A stretch of DNA of 64,000 bases from Nitrososphaerota archaeon (GTDB taxonomy: Archaea; Thermoproteota; Nitrososphaeria; Nitrososphaerales; Gagatemarchaeaceae): the NCBI GenBank assembly GCA_029785085.1, contig JAFMAI010000002.1:1-64000 (forward strand). Reading direction: 5' to 3'. A program made the position numbers and the translations under genes. This document shows positions 3,089-9,666 of this stretch, in pieces. Position 1 is the stretch's first letter, and every line of letters starts with the position of its first letter. The notes beneath the pieces are model-generated. The model worked only from the letters and a program-made list of their open reading frames with translations, made no database searches and had not been told where the DNA came from.

Positions 3089-4048
3089 TCAGAGGTCATA
3101 GACGACCCCAGGAACCTTGGGGAACGGCTGCACCTCGCCGATATGTTTCGCCCCTACTATCCAGCCGACGATTCGTTCGATACCGATGCCAGCTCCAGCA
3201 GACGGTTTGATTCTTCCTTCTTCGGAGAGCCTGAGGAGGAGTGAGAAGTTTTTCTGGTCGATTCCATCCCTCTCCATCTTCGACACTATCCTGTCGTGCT
3301 CCCACTCGCGTCTGGCACCTGAGAGTATCTCCCCGTAATAGGGGACGAAGAGGTCGTAGTTGTCCCACCTTCCGGTGGCGGGGTCCTCGTAGTCGTAGAA
3401 CTCTCTGGGGATGTTTGTGACCCAAACGGGGCGACTTGTCTGCTGAGGCAGGACCAGCTCCCACTCTTGTCCATGCCTGGCTATCAGGTCCCGTCTATCG
3501 AGGACTTCGAACGGGGTCTTCATCGCTTCGCGCCCGAAGGAGACAGGAAGATCCGAAGTCGTCTTCAGGTGAGCGACCAGGCCCGCGACGACGGCCTCCA
3601 CCAACTCCCGGACATCCTCGGAGCCGGCACCGCGCAACTCGAAATCAAACTGAGTGAACTCATAGGCATGCCGTCCGGTGTCCTTCCTTTCTCTCCTCTC
3701 AATCCTGACGTTCGGAGATAGGACGAAGAGCTTCGGGTACGCCGTCGAGGAGGCGACCAGCTTGTGGATGATCATGCTGTGCGTAGTCCTGACGGGCTCT
3801 CCATAGATTTCCGTCTCCACCCTCTTCTCGATGGAAGCCCCCGGGTCCGGCCAGAGGGGGTCTGTGGACTTCGAGAAGACCACAGGCAATAGCCAATCGA
3901 AACCTCGGCTCTCAAATTCACCAGTAAGGTATCTGAGAACCCTCGTGGTGACCTTCGCAACCTGCTCTTTCCTCTCCAACTCGTGGTCAGTAAGCAGATG
4001 GAGCGGCTTCGGGATTACAGTGGCGCCGGGCTCAAACGTTTCACTCAC
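3089..4048 (-). CDS. AsnRS-related archaeal asparagine synthetase (class II aaRS catalytic core without anticodon-binding domain)
   Basis: 319 aa; motif-2-like 'RIERRERKDTGRHAYEFTQFDFE', motif-3-like 'GAGIGIERIV'; no N-terminal OB-fold; GTG start. Confidence 0.8.
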   Translation of the reverse strand: MSETFEPGATVIPKPLHLLTDHELERKEQVAKVTTRVLRYLTGEFESRGFDWLLPVVFSKSTDPLWPDPGASIEKRVETEIYGEPVRTTHSMIIHKLVASSTAYPKLFVLSPNVRIERRERKDTGRHAYEFTQFDFELRGAGSEDVRELVEAVVAGLVAHLKTTSDLPVSFGREAMKTPFEVLDRRDLIARHGQEWELVLPQQTSRPVWVTNIPREFYDYEDPATGRWDNYDLFVPYYGEILSGARREWEHDRIVSKMERDGIDQKNFSLLLRLSEEGRIKPSAGAGIGIERIVGWIVGAKHIGEVQPFPKVPGVVYDL

Positions 4049-4089
4049 AAAGTTACATAGCTGCGATGAAATATAATCATTAAGCTAAA

Positions 4090-4112
4090 TTTTCTGGCAT
4101 CTTGCCGGAAAA
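4090..4112. promoter_or_regulatory. Inverted repeat (candidate operator) between divergent promoters
   Basis: TTTTCTGGCA-TCT-TGCCGGAAAA; 9/10 arm match; lies between TATA-like ATATAAT (minus, ~4071-4077) and TTTAATT (plus, ~4120-4126). Confidence 0.6.
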
Positions 4113-4150
4113 CAAATGGTTTAATTCCAATTCCACGGCATACTGACAGT

Positions 4151-4594
4151 ATGATGGACGCTAAGGACTCGAAGATACTCGCTGAGTTGGTATGCGACGG
4201 CCGGAGACCCATCGTTGATATTGCTAGCCACTTAGGGTTGCCTCGGGCCACAGTCCAGGATAGGTTGAGGAGGATGATGGAGTCAGGGGTGATAAGGAAA
4301 TTCGTCGCAATCCCGGACTACTCCAAAATCGGGAAGCGGGTGATGGCCTACGTCTTCGTCGCCTTCGGAGGCGAAGGGAGGCTCTCACAGAGGACGCTCG
4401 CAGAGGCGATATCGAAGATGCCGGGGGTCTACGAGGTGTCAGTGATTTCGGGGGAGTGGGACATTCTACTGAAGGTCAGGGCAAACACGTTAGAGGAGAT
4501 TGGAAACCTCGTCGTTGACAGGTTGAGGTCCATGAGCGGGGTCGAAAAGACAGAGACCTGCGTCTCATTCCAAACTATCAAGGAGAGCTTCTAG
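4151..4594 (+). CDS. Lrp/AsnC family transcriptional regulator
   Basis: 147 aa; N-terminal HTH 'LAELVCDGRRPIVDIASHLGLPRATVQDRLRRM' and C-terminal RAM-like domain. Confidence 0.92.
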   Translation: MMDAKDSKILAELVCDGRRPIVDIASHLGLPRATVQDRLRRMMESGVIRKFVAIPDYSKIGKRVMAYVFVAFGGEGRLSQRTLAEAISKMPGVYEVSVISGEWDILLKVRANTLEEIGNLVVDRLRSMSGVEKTETCVSFQTIKESF

Positions 4595-4862: not shown

Positions 4863-6104
4863 TTGGGGGATTCTAGTTCAATGAGCAAGAGCAGGTTTCA
4901 TGAAATCGTCATAATCAAGTTCGGAGGGTCTGTGCTGGACGACGGACAAGCCATCGTTCAGGCTGTCGAGCTCATCGCCCGCACTCTCAGGAAGGGGGTG
5001 GGGGTTGTCGTCGTGGTCTCGGCGATGAAGGGGGTCACCGACGGCCTCCTCACCCTTTCCAAGGGAGTAAATCCCAACATGGAGGCATCTCTCGTAGACG
5101 AGCTCCTCTCGTCAGGGGAGAAGACTAGCGCCAGGCTTGTGGCTGCGTCCATGGCGCACCATGGGCTCAAGCCTGTTGTGATAGACACAGACACCCCTGG
5201 CTGGCCAATCATCACCGACGACAGGCATCAGGACGCCAACCCTATCATGGATGTCACACGACAGCGGAGCAGGGAGACCCTGCTCCCTATAATCGAGCGC
5301 GGCGAAGTCCCCATTGTGTGCGGTTTCCTGGGGCGGACCGAGACAGGGAAGGTGACCACCCTGGGGCGCGGTGGGAGCGACACCACTGCGGTCCTCCTGG
5401 GGAGCTGCCTCGGGTCAAAGGAGGTCGTGCTCATAAAGGACGTCGACGGAGTCTTCTCGAGCGATCCTGGGAGAGTGAAGAACCCCCAGCTGATCGAGAG
5501 TCTGAACGGCGAAGAGGCCGAGCTGCTCGCAGCGGGCGGGGCCAAGTTCCTGCATCTGAAGGCCCTCAGCTATCAGGCGCAGGGGCTTAAGATTAGGGTG
5601 ACCAGTCTGGAGAAACTCGACGCAGGGACGGTCATAGAAGGGGACATACCAGAGACCAAGGTAGAGGTGACCAACGTGGAGACCTCAATGATGACCATCG
5701 TCGGAATAGACCCTGCGCGCTTCGAGTCCGTTCAGGCGGTCGCCGACGCGATAAGTGGGTGCGACGCCAAGATTCTGGCCCTCTCCCTGGAGTCGACCTC
5801 AGCTATCTTCTACATCTCAGGGGGCCGAGAGGTACTCGACCGAGTCCATCATGTCCTAGTCGGGGAGAGGATCGGCAAGGCGGTGTCGTCCTACGACGGC
5901 CTGGCCATGATTTCGATTCGAGGGAGGGCCCTCGAGACCCAGCCAGGCATAGTCCAGCGGGTGACCCAGCCGCTGGCGAGTTCTGGAATCAACCTATTCG
6001 GGATCGTAACAATCCAGTCGTCTGTCCGGGTGTTCGTATCCGCGGACCAGGCGCAGCGGGCGTCTAAGCTGGTCAAGGAATCGATGATGGTGGGGGTGCA
6101 GTGA
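4863..6104 (+). CDS. lysC: Aspartate kinase (start may be ATG 4881)
   Basis: 'IIKFGGSVLDDGQAI', 'TTLGRGGSDTTAVLLGSCLG', ACT domains at C-terminus. Confidence 0.93.
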   Translation: MGDSSSMSKSRFHEIVIIKFGGSVLDDGQAIVQAVELIARTLRKGVGVVVVVSAMKGVTDGLLTLSKGVNPNMEASLVDELLSSGEKTSARLVAASMAHHGLKPVVIDTDTPGWPIITDDRHQDANPIMDVTRQRSRETLLPIIERGEVPIVCGFLGRTETGKVTTLGRGGSDTTAVLLGSCLGSKEVVLIKDVDGVFSSDPGRVKNPQLIESLNGEEAELLAAGGAKFLHLKALSYQAQGLKIRVTSLEKLDAGTVIEGDIPETKVEVTNVETSMMTIVGIDPARFESVQAVADAISGCDAKILALSLESTSAIFYISGGREVLDRVHHVLVGERIGKAVSSYDGLAMISIRGRALETQPGIVQRVTQPLASSGINLFGIVTIQSSVRVFVSADQAQRASKLVKESMMVGVQ

Positions 6105-7165
6105 GCAAGCTCCGGGCTGCGCTGCTGGGCGCGACGGGAGCGGTGGGCCAGAGATACCTCATGATGCTGAGCCGCCACCCTACCATCGAGCTCGAAGTGC
6201 TCATGGGAGGAGACTCAGCTGGCAGAGCTTACGGCGAAGCTGCCCGCTGGCTCGTCTCTGAGGACATCCCGGATAGATTCGCGGATAGGAAGGTACTCCC
6301 AACCGACCCGCGCAACGCGGAAGGGTGCGACGTTGTCTTCTCAGCGCTCCCCGCCGAGGCGGCTTCCACAGTCGAACCGGAGTTCGTCAAGGCTGGCCTC
6401 ACGGTGATAAGCGAAGCTAGCGCTCATAGGCTCGAGGAGGACGTCCCCCTAGTGATTCCGGAGGTCAACCCTGACCACCTCGGGCTCTTGGACTTGCAAA
6501 GGAAGAGGAGGGGATGGAGCGGTTCCCTGGTCGCCACCCCCAACTGTACTGTCACAGGACTAGCCATGGTCCTCAAGCCTCTATCGGACAGCTTCGCGCT
6601 AAGGCGCGCCATCGTAACGACAATGCAGGCGGTGTCAGGGGCGGGCTTCCCCGGCGTCCCTTCCATGTTGATCATGGAGAACGTCGTGCCATACATCAAG
6701 GGCGAGGAGGAGAAAGTCTCTGATGAGTCCCGGAAGATCCTTGGGACCCAATCGGAAATCGGGATTCGCAGCGCCAATCTGCAGATTGCTATTTCGTGCA
6801 ACAGGGTCCCGGTCATAGACGGCCACGTCGAGACGCTGTACGCTGAGCTTGGGAAGGACATCGAGCCGGAGGAGGCGGTGGACTGCCTGAATAGGTTCCG
6901 GGGTGCGCCTCAGGAACTGGGTCTCCCTTCGGCGCCCATGCAGCCAATCATCGTCAGGCCTGAGCCAGACAGGCCTCAGCCCCGCCTGGACCGCCTCTCT
7001 GGCTCGGTCCCAGGCATGAGCGTAGCGGTGGGGAGGGTACGGAGGGGGCTAGGCCGCGACTCGATTCAGCTAACACTCGTTTCTCACAACACAATCAGGG
7101 GCGCCGCAGGCACAGCGATACTCACGGCCGAACTTATGGATAACAAGGGGCAGCTCGGGAGATAG
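6101..7165 (+). CDS. asd: Aspartate-semialdehyde dehydrogenase
   Basis: 'LLGATGAVGQRYLMML', catalytic 'ATPNCTVTGLAMVLKPL'; GTGA overlap with lysC. Confidence 0.93.
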   Translation: MSKLRAALLGATGAVGQRYLMMLSRHPTIELEVLMGGDSAGRAYGEAARWLVSEDIPDRFADRKVLPTDPRNAEGCDVVFSALPAEAASTVEPEFVKAGLTVISEASAHRLEEDVPLVIPEVNPDHLGLLDLQRKRRGWSGSLVATPNCTVTGLAMVLKPLSDSFALRRAIVTTMQAVSGAGFPGVPSMLIMENVVPYIKGEEEKVSDESRKILGTQSEIGIRSANLQIAISCNRVPVIDGHVETLYAELGKDIEPEEAVDCLNRFRGAPQELGLPSAPMQPIIVRPEPDRPQPRLDRLSGSVPGMSVAVGRVRRGLGRDSIQLTLVSHNTIRGAAGTAILTAELMDNKGQLGR

Positions 7166-7168
7166 GGT

Positions 7169-7960
7169 TTGGTCTCAGGCAAGACGTTCAGGATTTCAAG
7201 AATCGTCGACCGCGGCAGGATGCTCTGCGTCCCAATGGATCACTCCATCACCAACGGCCCTATCAGAGGCCTCGAGGAGCCTGAGTTGATGATAAAATCT
7301 GTCGCCGAGGGCGGCGCGACTGCTTTCCTAGCCCACAAAGGCGTCCTGAAAGCCCTCAAGGAGGCGCCCCCGATCGGCATGATACTCCAACTCTCGGCGA
7401 GCACCGTCCTCGGACCAGCTCCCAACCGGAAGGTCCTGATATCGTCAGTCGAGGAGGGGGTCAGGCTCGGAGCCGACGCCGTCTCCGTCCACATCAACAT
7501 AGGCGCCAGGGAGGAGTCCGAGATGCTGGGCCAGCTTGGTATGGTTGCAGACGAGTGCGACAGCCTGCAGGTCCCGCTTATAGCCATGATGTACCCTCGC
7601 GGAGAAGGAATCAAGGACCCGAACGACCCAGACACCATCGCCCACGTGGCCCGCATCGGCGCCGAAGCTGGGGCTGACATTGTCAAGACGGTCTACACCG
7701 GAAGCATCGAGACGTTCAGGGAGGTCGTGAGGAAATGCCCCGCCCCCGTGGTGCTTGCGGGGGGCTCTAAGGTCGACTCCGACAGGGCCCTGCTCGAAAT
7801 GGCAGGCTCCGTCATGAGAGCGGGGGCGATGGGAGTGACCTTCGGGAGAAACGTCTTCGGGCACAGCGATCCTGTTGGCATTGTCAGGGCGCTGCGCAGC
7901 GTGGTGGTGGAAGGACAGTCCGCCGACAGAGCCATGGAGTCCCTCAGCCATGCTGACTGA
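7169..7960 (+). CDS. 2-amino-3,7-dideoxy-D-threo-hept-6-ulosonate (ADH) synthase, MJ0400-type class I aldolase
   Basis: 'RMLCVPMDHSITNGPIRGLE', 'ADIVKTVYTGS', 'GGSKVDSDRALLEMAG'; adjacent to type II DHQ synthase; TTG start. Confidence 0.88.
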   Translation: MVSGKTFRISRIVDRGRMLCVPMDHSITNGPIRGLEEPELMIKSVAEGGATAFLAHKGVLKALKEAPPIGMILQLSASTVLGPAPNRKVLISSVEEGVRLGADAVSVHINIGAREESEMLGQLGMVADECDSLQVPLIAMMYPRGEGIKDPNDPDTIAHVARIGAEAGADIVKTVYTGSIETFREVVRKCPAPVVLAGGSKVDSDRALLEMAGSVMRAGAMGVTFGRNVFGHSDPVGIVRALRSVVVEGQSADRAMESLSHAD

Positions 7961-8963
7961 AGACAAGGCGCTGCTCCTCCATATTTCAGGGCCCGAGATG
8001 TCCGAGGTCATCCTTAACGACGCCGTAGCAGCCGGGGTGAGAGGGCTGGTCGTAGACCGGCCACTTTCGACATCAGTCCCACTGAACGGGCTCGATGTCT
8101 TCGAGGTCTCCGAAGGCGAAGGGGAGAACAAGGCTAGGTGGATTAAGGTAGCCGGGGCAGGCGACGTCGAAAGGGCGTTGACCGCAAGCACGTTGAGCCT
8201 GGCCTTCGTTGTCGTCGAGTGCTCCGACTGGCGCATCATCCCACTGGAGAACCTCATCGCGGAGTTCAGGCGCCGTGGACGCAAACTCTACGCCTACGCC
8301 GAATCGAAGGAACAGATTGAGACGGCTTTCTCCGTCCTTGAGCTAGGGGTCGACGGCGTCGTAATCCCATACTCTTCTATCGTCGAGGCCAAGAGGCTCT
8401 CCGTCAGAAGGGCAGAGCTCCCCCTCGAACCTGCCGAGGTGACAAGAGTAATGGATGCAGGGGTCGGAGACCGCGCATGCGTCGACACAACGTCGCTGCT
8501 GGAGGTAGGGGAAGGAATGCTCGTCGGGAGCAGGGGTGGGTTCTTCTTCCTCGTGCACGGAGAGACGATACCGTCGGAGTACATCGCCACCCGGCCCTTC
8601 AGGGTGAACGCAGGCGCGGTGCACAGCTATACTCTAGCCTCGGACGGGAAGACGAGGTACCTGTCGGAGCTCAAGCCCCCAGACACGGTCACCATCGTGA
8701 GCAGCGGTGGAGGCAGCCGGGAGGCGTCGGTGGGAAGGGTCAAGATAGAGCGGCGGCCACTGGTGCTTGTGGATGCTAGGTCGAAGGCCGGTTCTGGGAC
8801 GGTGATACTCCAGAAAGCCGAGACTATCCGTCTGGTGCGCCCCGGCGGGGGTGCGGTCTCAGTGACAGAACTAAAGACGGGAGACGCGGTCTTGGTTCAC
8901 GTCGAGACAGCCAAAGCTAGGCACTTCGGGTTAGAGGTGGATGAGCATATCAACGAAAAGTAG
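7950..8963 (+). CDS. 3-dehydroquinate synthase type II (MJ1249-type)
   Basis: 'GVDGVVIPYSSIVEAKRL', 'DTTSLLEVGEGMLVGSRGGFFFLVHGET', 'RPFRVNAGAVHSYTL'. Confidence 0.92.
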   Translation: MLTEDKALLLHISGPEMSEVILNDAVAAGVRGLVVDRPLSTSVPLNGLDVFEVSEGEGENKARWIKVAGAGDVERALTASTLSLAFVVVECSDWRIIPLENLIAEFRRRGRKLYAYAESKEQIETAFSVLELGVDGVVIPYSSIVEAKRLSVRRAELPLEPAEVTRVMDAGVGDRACVDTTSLLEVGEGMLVGSRGGFFFLVHGETIPSEYIATRPFRVNAGAVHSYTLASDGKTRYLSELKPPDTVTIVSSGGGSREASVGRVKIERRPLVLVDARSKAGSGTVILQKAETIRLVRPGGGAVSVTELKTGDAVLVHVETAKARHFGLEVDEHINEK

Positions 8964-9666
8964 CGCGGTAGAGCTCGTCGCTCCCCCTATGGAGGGCCAG
9001 AAGACATTGGTGTGCACGTCCGTGTCGGCAAGAACACCAGCCGAACTGAGGGCCAAGGCGCAGAGGGCGTTCAACTCGGGGACAGATCTAGTCGAGTTCA
9101 GGCTGGACTCACTCAGGCCGTTCAGGTCTAAGGCGCAGGAAATCACAGAATTCTTGAGCAGGGCGATACTTACCGTAAGATCTCAGGGCGAGGGGGGAGA
9201 CTTCGAGGGGAGGGAGCCAGACCGCCTGAACGCCATCAGGGCCTCCTGCGAACTGGGACCCGCCTATGTAGACGTCGAGCTCCGGACCCTCAGGGCTAAT
9301 CACGACTTGGTCTCCGAACTGGCCGGCCAGAAACTCATCGTCTCTTGGCACGACAGTCTCCAGACTCCTCCCAAGGCCCGCCTAGCTTCTATCCTAGCGG
9401 CCGCAAAGGCCTTCGGGGGCCTCGCGAAGCTGGTCCCCACCGCCAGAGAGGCATCAGACAACCTCGCTGTCCTGTCCCTGTATGGCTGTCGGGCCCCGGC
9501 GCCGATAGCATTCTGCATGGGTGAAGCGGGCGTGCTTTCAAGGGTCATGGCGATCGAACTGCGGACCCCCATCGTCTACGCTTCTCTCCCCGGGGAGCAG
9601 ACCGCCCCCGGACAGCTCACCTTGTCCAAACTCCTGGCGCTGCGGAGGAAGCTGGGATGTGACTGA
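8941..9666 (+). CDS. aroD: 3-dehydroquinate dehydratase type I
   Basis: 'DLVEFRLDSLRPF', 'KLIVSWHDSLQTP', 'AFCMGEAGVLSRV'. Confidence 0.9.
   Translation: MSISTKSSAVELVAPPMEGQKTLVCTSVSARTPAELRAKAQRAFNSGTDLVEFRLDSLRPFRSKAQEITEFLSRAILTVRSQGEGGDFEGREPDRLNAIRASCELGPAYVDVELRTLRANHDLVSELAGQKLIVSWHDSLQTPPKARLASILAAAKAFGGLAKLVPTAREASDNLAVLSLYGCRAPAPIAFCMGEAGVLSRVMAIELRTPIVYASLPGEQTAPGQLTLSKLLALRRKLGCD

Follow-up and report, generated by a model that had tools for sequence, protein, structure and literature searches.

The regulator AsnC of E. coli activates asnA and represses its own gene, and its action is countered by Asn (PMC8707732). The two genes, asnC on the minus strand and asnA on the plus strand, are divergent and 151 bp apart, a comparison drawn in the earlier note on the locus described here and confirmed by us. 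AsnA is an ammonia-dependent asparagine synthetase of the aaRS fold and matches PF03590 at 1e-92. In archaea, asparagine synthetases of the AS-AR family are represented by the Pyrococcus abyssi and Pyrococcus furiosus structures 3p8t, 3reu, 3rex, 3rl6, and 1nnh. A divergent arrangement of an Lrp regulator and the enzyme it controls is also described in Sulfolobus acidocaldarius, where the BarR/Saci_2137 divergon has multiple operators and a small regulon; there the enzyme is a beta-alanine aminotransferase and the ligand is beta-alanine (PMC4977709). A search of the open-access literature found no description of an archaeal Lrp beside AS-AR.

The window, which is the whole stretch of 64,000 nucleotides analysed here, contains an AS-AR gene and an lrp gene that are divergently oriented. 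The spacing of about 100 bp given previously corresponds to 102 bp between the two open reading frames. Archaeal Lrp divergons are already a known kind, and there is good support for seeing the AS-AR/Lrp pair, with its predicted operator, as the archaeal equivalent of asnC-asnA. In both systems, a regulator of the Lrp/AsnC family is transcribed divergently from an asparagine synthetase that has the aaRS fold and depends on ammonia. They differ in the gap (151 bp in E. coli versus 102 bp), in the synthetase family (PF03590 versus PF00152), and in the promoters, which are of the TATA/BRE type in the archaeal pair, unlike those of E. coli; autoregulation is predicted for the archaeal pair. The features are as follows.

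3089-4048, minus strand: AS-AR, an archaeal protein of the asparagine synthetase A type, 319 aa, with its GTG start codon at 4048
4049-4150, no strand: shared control region, 102 bp between AS-AR and lrp
4070-4077, minus strand: TATA-like box for AS-AR, about 25 nt before the GTG; transcript predicted to be leaderless
4090-4112, no strand: predicted operator 1, TTTTCTGGCA-TCT-TGCCGGAAAA, 10-bp arms, 9/10 complementary
4095-4110, no strand: conserved core of operator 1, TGGCAnnnTGYCGGAA
4120-4126, plus strand: TATA-like box for lrp, TTTAATT, about 28 nt before the ATG; transcript predicted to be leaderless
4139-4153, no strand: predicted operator 2, CATACTGACAGTATG, perfect 6-3-6 palindrome over the lrp start codon
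4151-4594, plus strand: lrp, Lrp/AsnC-family regulator, 147 aa, divergent to AS-AR
4863-6104, plus strand: aspartokinase downstream of lrp, a competing use of aspartate, outside the core pair

The synthetase and the supply of asparagine

The 319-aa protein had been read as an AsnRS-like core lacking an anticodon-binding domain and as an asparagine synthetase of the archaeal type, and both descriptions hold. PF00152, the class II aaRS core, is its only Pfam match, and it has no OB-fold, unlike the true AsnRS of the same genome, which carries the anticodon OB-fold PF01336. It scores 368.8 bits with the NCBIfam equivalog model NF005054 'asparagine synthetase A' (cut-off 309) and far below both the AsnRS and AspRS family models, and its top PDB matches are 1nnh (6e-85) and 3p8t (1.3e-84). 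A structure search with its AlphaFold2 model (mean pLDDT 77.8) places the five AS-AR structures 3p8t, 3reu, 3rex, 3rl6, and 1nnh at ranks 1-5 (E about 1e-30, 45-47% identity), whereas AsnRS structures match the model only at 1e-20. The protein shares family, length class, and active-site motifs with the Pyrococcus enzymes, to which it is about 46-47% identical in structural alignment. The residues of class II motifs 2 and 3 are present (R115, E117, H127, E130, G285, G287, G289, E291, R292), and all five near-invariant AS-AR residues that differ in AsnRS (I93, K96, N113, Q133, E248) are kept. By its sequence, the product of 3089-4048 belongs to the AS-AR family of archaeal asparagine synthetases, with an enzymatic activity predicted from that family; it would convert aspartate, ATP, and ammonia to free asparagine.

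The protein could instead be an AsnRS-like paralogue with another activity, such as charging tRNA or a non-tRNA acceptor. The assignment of AS-AR activity comes from family membership alone, and in the related lineages G033, G034, G028, and G032 there are additional short proteins resembling AsnRS (348-365 aa), which would fit such a paralogue. It is nevertheless a highly improbable reading, given about 46% identity over the core to the crystallised archaeal asparagine synthetase, the retention of every AS-AR residue that differs from AsnRS, and the missing anticodon domain. The short AsnRS-like proteins (G033:C4:31702-32757, G034:C1:41694-42632, G028:C61:9459-10385, and G032:C1:244926-245849) are a further type beside AS-AR and full-length AsnRS.

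The true AsnRS of the genome is encoded at C15:94848-96089 (369.6 bits, cut-off 342.6) and has the OB-fold. GatB was found in none of the 31 sampled members of the genus, so that tRNA-dependent asparagine synthesis looks unavailable there. Since AsnRS is present and GatB is absent throughout the genus, free asparagine must be made or imported, and the lineage would need the AS-AR product because tRNA-Asn is charged directly by AsnRS. AsnB was not found in this genome. As the assembly is only 66% complete, genes missing from it say little, and the lack of GatB across the whole genus carries more weight. Six members of the genus have AsnB, and AS-AR occurs in none of these six. AS-AR and AsnB are found in 12 and 6 of 37 family members, respectively, and both in none, but at p ~0.08 a significant mutual exclusion is not claimed. 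Neither AS-AR nor AsnB nor GatB was detected, at the thresholds used, in nine family members that are at least 90% complete and have AsnRS; one of them, G005, is 100% complete and a single contig. These nine may be asparagine auxotrophs or may use an unknown route to asparagine.

The regulator and its linkage to AS-AR

The 147-aa protein is a full-length Lrp/AsnC (FFRP) protein, with the AsnC-type HTH PF13404 and the AsnC/RAM ligand-binding domain PF01037 both above cut-off. It does not qualify as an orthologue of E. coli AsnC by the equivalog model NF008384, with 51 bits against a cut-off of 227. Its closest solved relative by sequence is PH1519 (2e-22), which we take to be FL11 of Pyrococcus horikoshii. 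The ligands given for FL11 are Lys, Arg, and Gln, and the review does not mention a link of FL11 to AS-AR (PMC2995911). Members of the AS-AR-linked subfamily score at least 140 bits against the window Lrp and all other Lrps at most 72 bits, with the exception of one contig-edge fragment.

AS-AR loci were drawn from relatives, from the phylum, from public genomes, and from the phylum of the Methanofastidiosia locus. The comparison across related archaea that had been proposed as a check recovered 35 non-redundant pairs of AS-AR and Lrp in divergent orientation. They come from Nitrososphaerota, Bathyarchaeota, Methanofastidiosia, and a single Thermoplasmata MAG, and the linkage is ancient within archaea. 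Among 61 related genomes, 11 have both AS-AR and the Lrp subfamily (one of these 11, G028, holds AS-AR fragments only), 2 have AS-AR only, 1 has the Lrp only, and 47 have neither (Fisher p 2e-9). The adjacency is far from chance. No adjacent Lrp was found at the sampled AS-AR loci of Thermococci, in which the window differs from Pyrococcus, or at those of most other sampled Thermoproteota families. The many AS-AR genes without an adjacent Lrp indicate that the regulator is dispensable to the enzyme.

In a tree that combines the pair Lrps with further Lrps of archaea and with AsnC of E. coli, the 34 pair Lrps that could be used are all gathered in one clade (support 89/80). Four non-pair Lrps lie inside this clade. 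L215 is at a contig edge, L204 is divergent and one gene away from AS-AR, and L218 and L223 have no AS-AR at hand. At L204 (G473), the gene between AS-AR and the divergent linked Lrp is PEPCK-like and apparently co-operonic with AS-AR. In several genomes, DNA similarity is confined to about 1.5 kb and ends at the borders of the pair, and the flanks differ; L028 and L064, for example, are 86.7% identical over 1529 bp, with similarity in the pair only. This pattern of sequence similarity suggests that the pair may have been transferred as a unit. The pair also suggests that the lineage acquires and loses asparagine prototrophy in the form of a small unit that regulates itself.

The trees of enzyme and regulator disagree. 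The Lrps that accompany window-type AS-AR genes do not form a clade (AU p 0.0003), and Methanofastidiosia, which join the window family in the Lrp tree, do not do so in the AS-AR tree (AU p 2.6e-5). These two tests rule out simple co-inheritance of AS-AR and Lrp, the tested groups having been named after the trees had been viewed. The arrangement thus seems to have outlived the exchange of one partner. Across archaea, the linkage is old, with repeated loss of the regulator and exchange of partners.

Some copies of the pair were set aside. Three copies in one genome are not accepted, since over 16.7 kb its C18 contig matches contigs of G018 and G029 at 99.98% identity and is mis-binned or shared. 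G000:C18 (L028), G018:C3 (L061), and G029:C1 (L062) are 99.97-99.98% identical over 10.9-16.7 kb in three species-level MAGs, and this common DNA is a binning artefact or a very recent transfer. The C6 pair, found on a contig of 15.6 kb, is likewise unsure and is not claimed as an extra copy.

The control region and its predicted regulation

With predicted TATA boxes about 25-28 nt upstream of both start codons, both mRNAs would be leaderless. Operator 1 lies between the two boxes, a few bp upstream of each BRE/TATA. Its core, TGGCAnnnTGYCGGAA, occurs in three perfect copies in the 908-kb assembly, each in AS-AR/lrp intergenic DNA, and no copy with one mismatch was found in that assembly. A leave-one-out PWM finds operator 1 in 9/9 family loci (p <= 0.007), at a fixed distance of -54 to -60 from the lrp start. 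The element is also found in Bathyarchaeota L025 and L026, at -58 to -64 (p 0.004 and 0.006). A TGGCA-type operator general to all pairs is rejected, as the element is limited to the window family and these two Bathyarchaeota; Methanofastidiosia and others are without a match. In G031, where AS-AR is kept and the Lrp is gone, the operator has decayed to a weak match, and in G052, which has no adjacent Lrp, a weak operator-like element is retained.

Operator 2 contains GGCATACTGAC, which begins at 4137. Palindromes like operator 2 occur at the same location in other pairs, for example CCAGCATCTTGCTGG and TTGTAATAATTACAA. Over all pairs, 42 perfect 5-3-5 palindromes were observed, where shuffled sequences would give 10.5. 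An autoregulated Lrp divergon is marked structurally by a divergent target gene together with conserved operator-like palindromes between the two genes, and both are found here. The window Lrp very probably binds these operators, and specific binding at 4049-4150 would depend on TGGCAnnnTGCC.

The locus is probably a dedicated, autoregulated asparagine-synthesis divergon that works like E. coli asnC-asnA with a different synthetase family. This reading draws on the identities found for both genes, on their conserved linkage and their co-occurrence, on operators that are conserved and specific to the locus, and on a genus in which AsnRS occurs without GatB. The divergent Lrp would act as the local regulator of one locus and would occupy both operator 1, in the stretch that separates the promoters, and operator 2, which covers the start codon of lrp. 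In archaea, Lrp proteins that activate bind immediately upstream of the BRE; LrpA of P. furiosus, a repressor, binds downstream of the TATA box and keeps RNAP out (PMC2995911). As operators 1 and 2 are placed like these activator and repressor sites, respectively, activation via operator 1 and autorepression via operator 2 are favoured. Occupied operator 1 would activate AS-AR when asparagine is low, occupied operator 2 would block RNA polymerase at lrp, and asparagine in the ligand domain of the Lrp would switch the activation off. By analogy with the described systems, we favour with modest confidence that the Lrp activates rather than represses AS-AR, and we lean slightly towards asparagine as its effector.

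With the same enzyme and the same sites, the Lrp might instead repress AS-AR, with asparagine (or aspartate or glutamine) as co-repressor and the whole 102 bp wrapped. At least two palindromes across both promoters fit cooperative Lrp wrapping, by which operator 1, although outside the promoter cores, could serve as a repressor site; several archaeal Lrps repress via promoter occlusion or RNAP exclusion (PMC2995911). Yet no palindrome like operator 2 lies downstream of the AS-AR TATA box in the window, and operator 1 is located where archaeal Lrp activators sit, so repression of AS-AR is the rather unlikely alternative to activation.

A second alternative concerns the target. Synteny between the window and G014:C2 extends over 9.7 kb, and downstream of lrp the window carries, at 4863-9666, a row of genes for aspartokinase, aspartate-semialdehyde dehydrogenase (ASADH), 2-amino-3,7-dideoxy-D-threo-hept-6-ulosonate synthase, 3-dehydroquinate synthase II, and type I dehydroquinase. 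Judged from its gene content, this row is the archaeal aspartate-derived route to aromatic precursors in one cluster, and a prephenate dehydratase is encoded at 2113-2970, on the opposite side of the AS-AR/Lrp pair. If this aspartokinase-ASADH-aromatic cluster were the main target of the Lrp, the adjacency to AS-AR would be passive. Aspartokinase does follow lrp in the window and in G014, and the C18-type pair has genes for aspartokinase and homoserine dehydrogenase about 1 kb away. However, the pair keeps its arrangement and its operator in unrelated contexts, where homology ends at its borders, and the best operator match in the window is intergenic, with none upstream of 4863, which makes the downstream cluster a very unlikely main target. 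Across the window, the intergenic site scores 24.0 bits with the operator PWM and the runner-up 13.8 bits. The homoserine dehydrogenase and aspartokinase genes near the C18-type pair (L028:10114-12582) are a second aspartate-family association in an otherwise unrelated context.

On the preferred reading, in which the Lrp controls AS-AR and its own gene, an uncharacterised archaeal Lrp subfamily gains a concrete function, a target, and a predicted binding site.

Relation to E. coli asnC-asnA

The earlier note had assigned the two synthetases to different lineages, and this is borne out. E. coli AsnA belongs to PF03590, the PF03590 model does not match the 319-aa protein, and hhalign of AsnA to the AS-AR profile aligns the motif-3 stretch only. 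Its further suggestion of a convergent or ancient regulatory linkage stands for the ancient linkage within archaea; with respect to E. coli, convergence is favoured. E. coli AsnC lies outside the archaeal pair-Lrp clade in the best tree, yet the AU test does not reject a tree in which it is forced inside that clade (p 0.184), and a firm claim of convergence was dropped for this reason.

The opposite view is that E. coli asnC-asnA goes back to an AS-AR/Lrp pair of archaea that was transferred whole. A 2022 review, after Roy et al. 2003, proposes that bacteria received AS-A from archaea (PMC9437257), the archaeal pair seems to travel as a unit, and AsnC within the archaeal clade survives the AU test. 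The proteins themselves argue for separate origins. AsnA is a separate Pfam family whose likeness to AS-AR is detectable at motif 3 only, and AsnC is 22% identical to the window Lrp and reaches 32 bits, versus 56-73 bits for most other archaeal Lrps. Separate origins of archaeal and bacterial AsnA have also been inferred from their different aspartate-anchoring residues (PMC3532385). A common origin by transfer of the whole pair is improbable on this evidence, and an independent rise of the archaeal pair and E. coli asnC-asnA is favoured.

Archaea and bacteria offer a testable case of the same circuit, an Lrp/AsnC regulator divergent from an aaRS-derived asparagine synthetase, built from different parts. 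A wider proposal, for which we see the chances as evenly balanced, is that the Lrp subfamily would be a dedicated asparagine sensor archaea-wide, co-inherited and co-transferred with AS-AR as a portable unit of asparagine prototrophy, that a divergent autoregulated circuit matching that of E. coli AsnC-AsnA evolved independently, and that the arrangement survived the exchange of either partner.

In two other lineages, an Lrp of a different subfamily lies directly downstream of AS-AR on the same strand (L152:4041-4601 and L153:4029-4559), which is possibly an independent linkage of AS-AR and Lrp.
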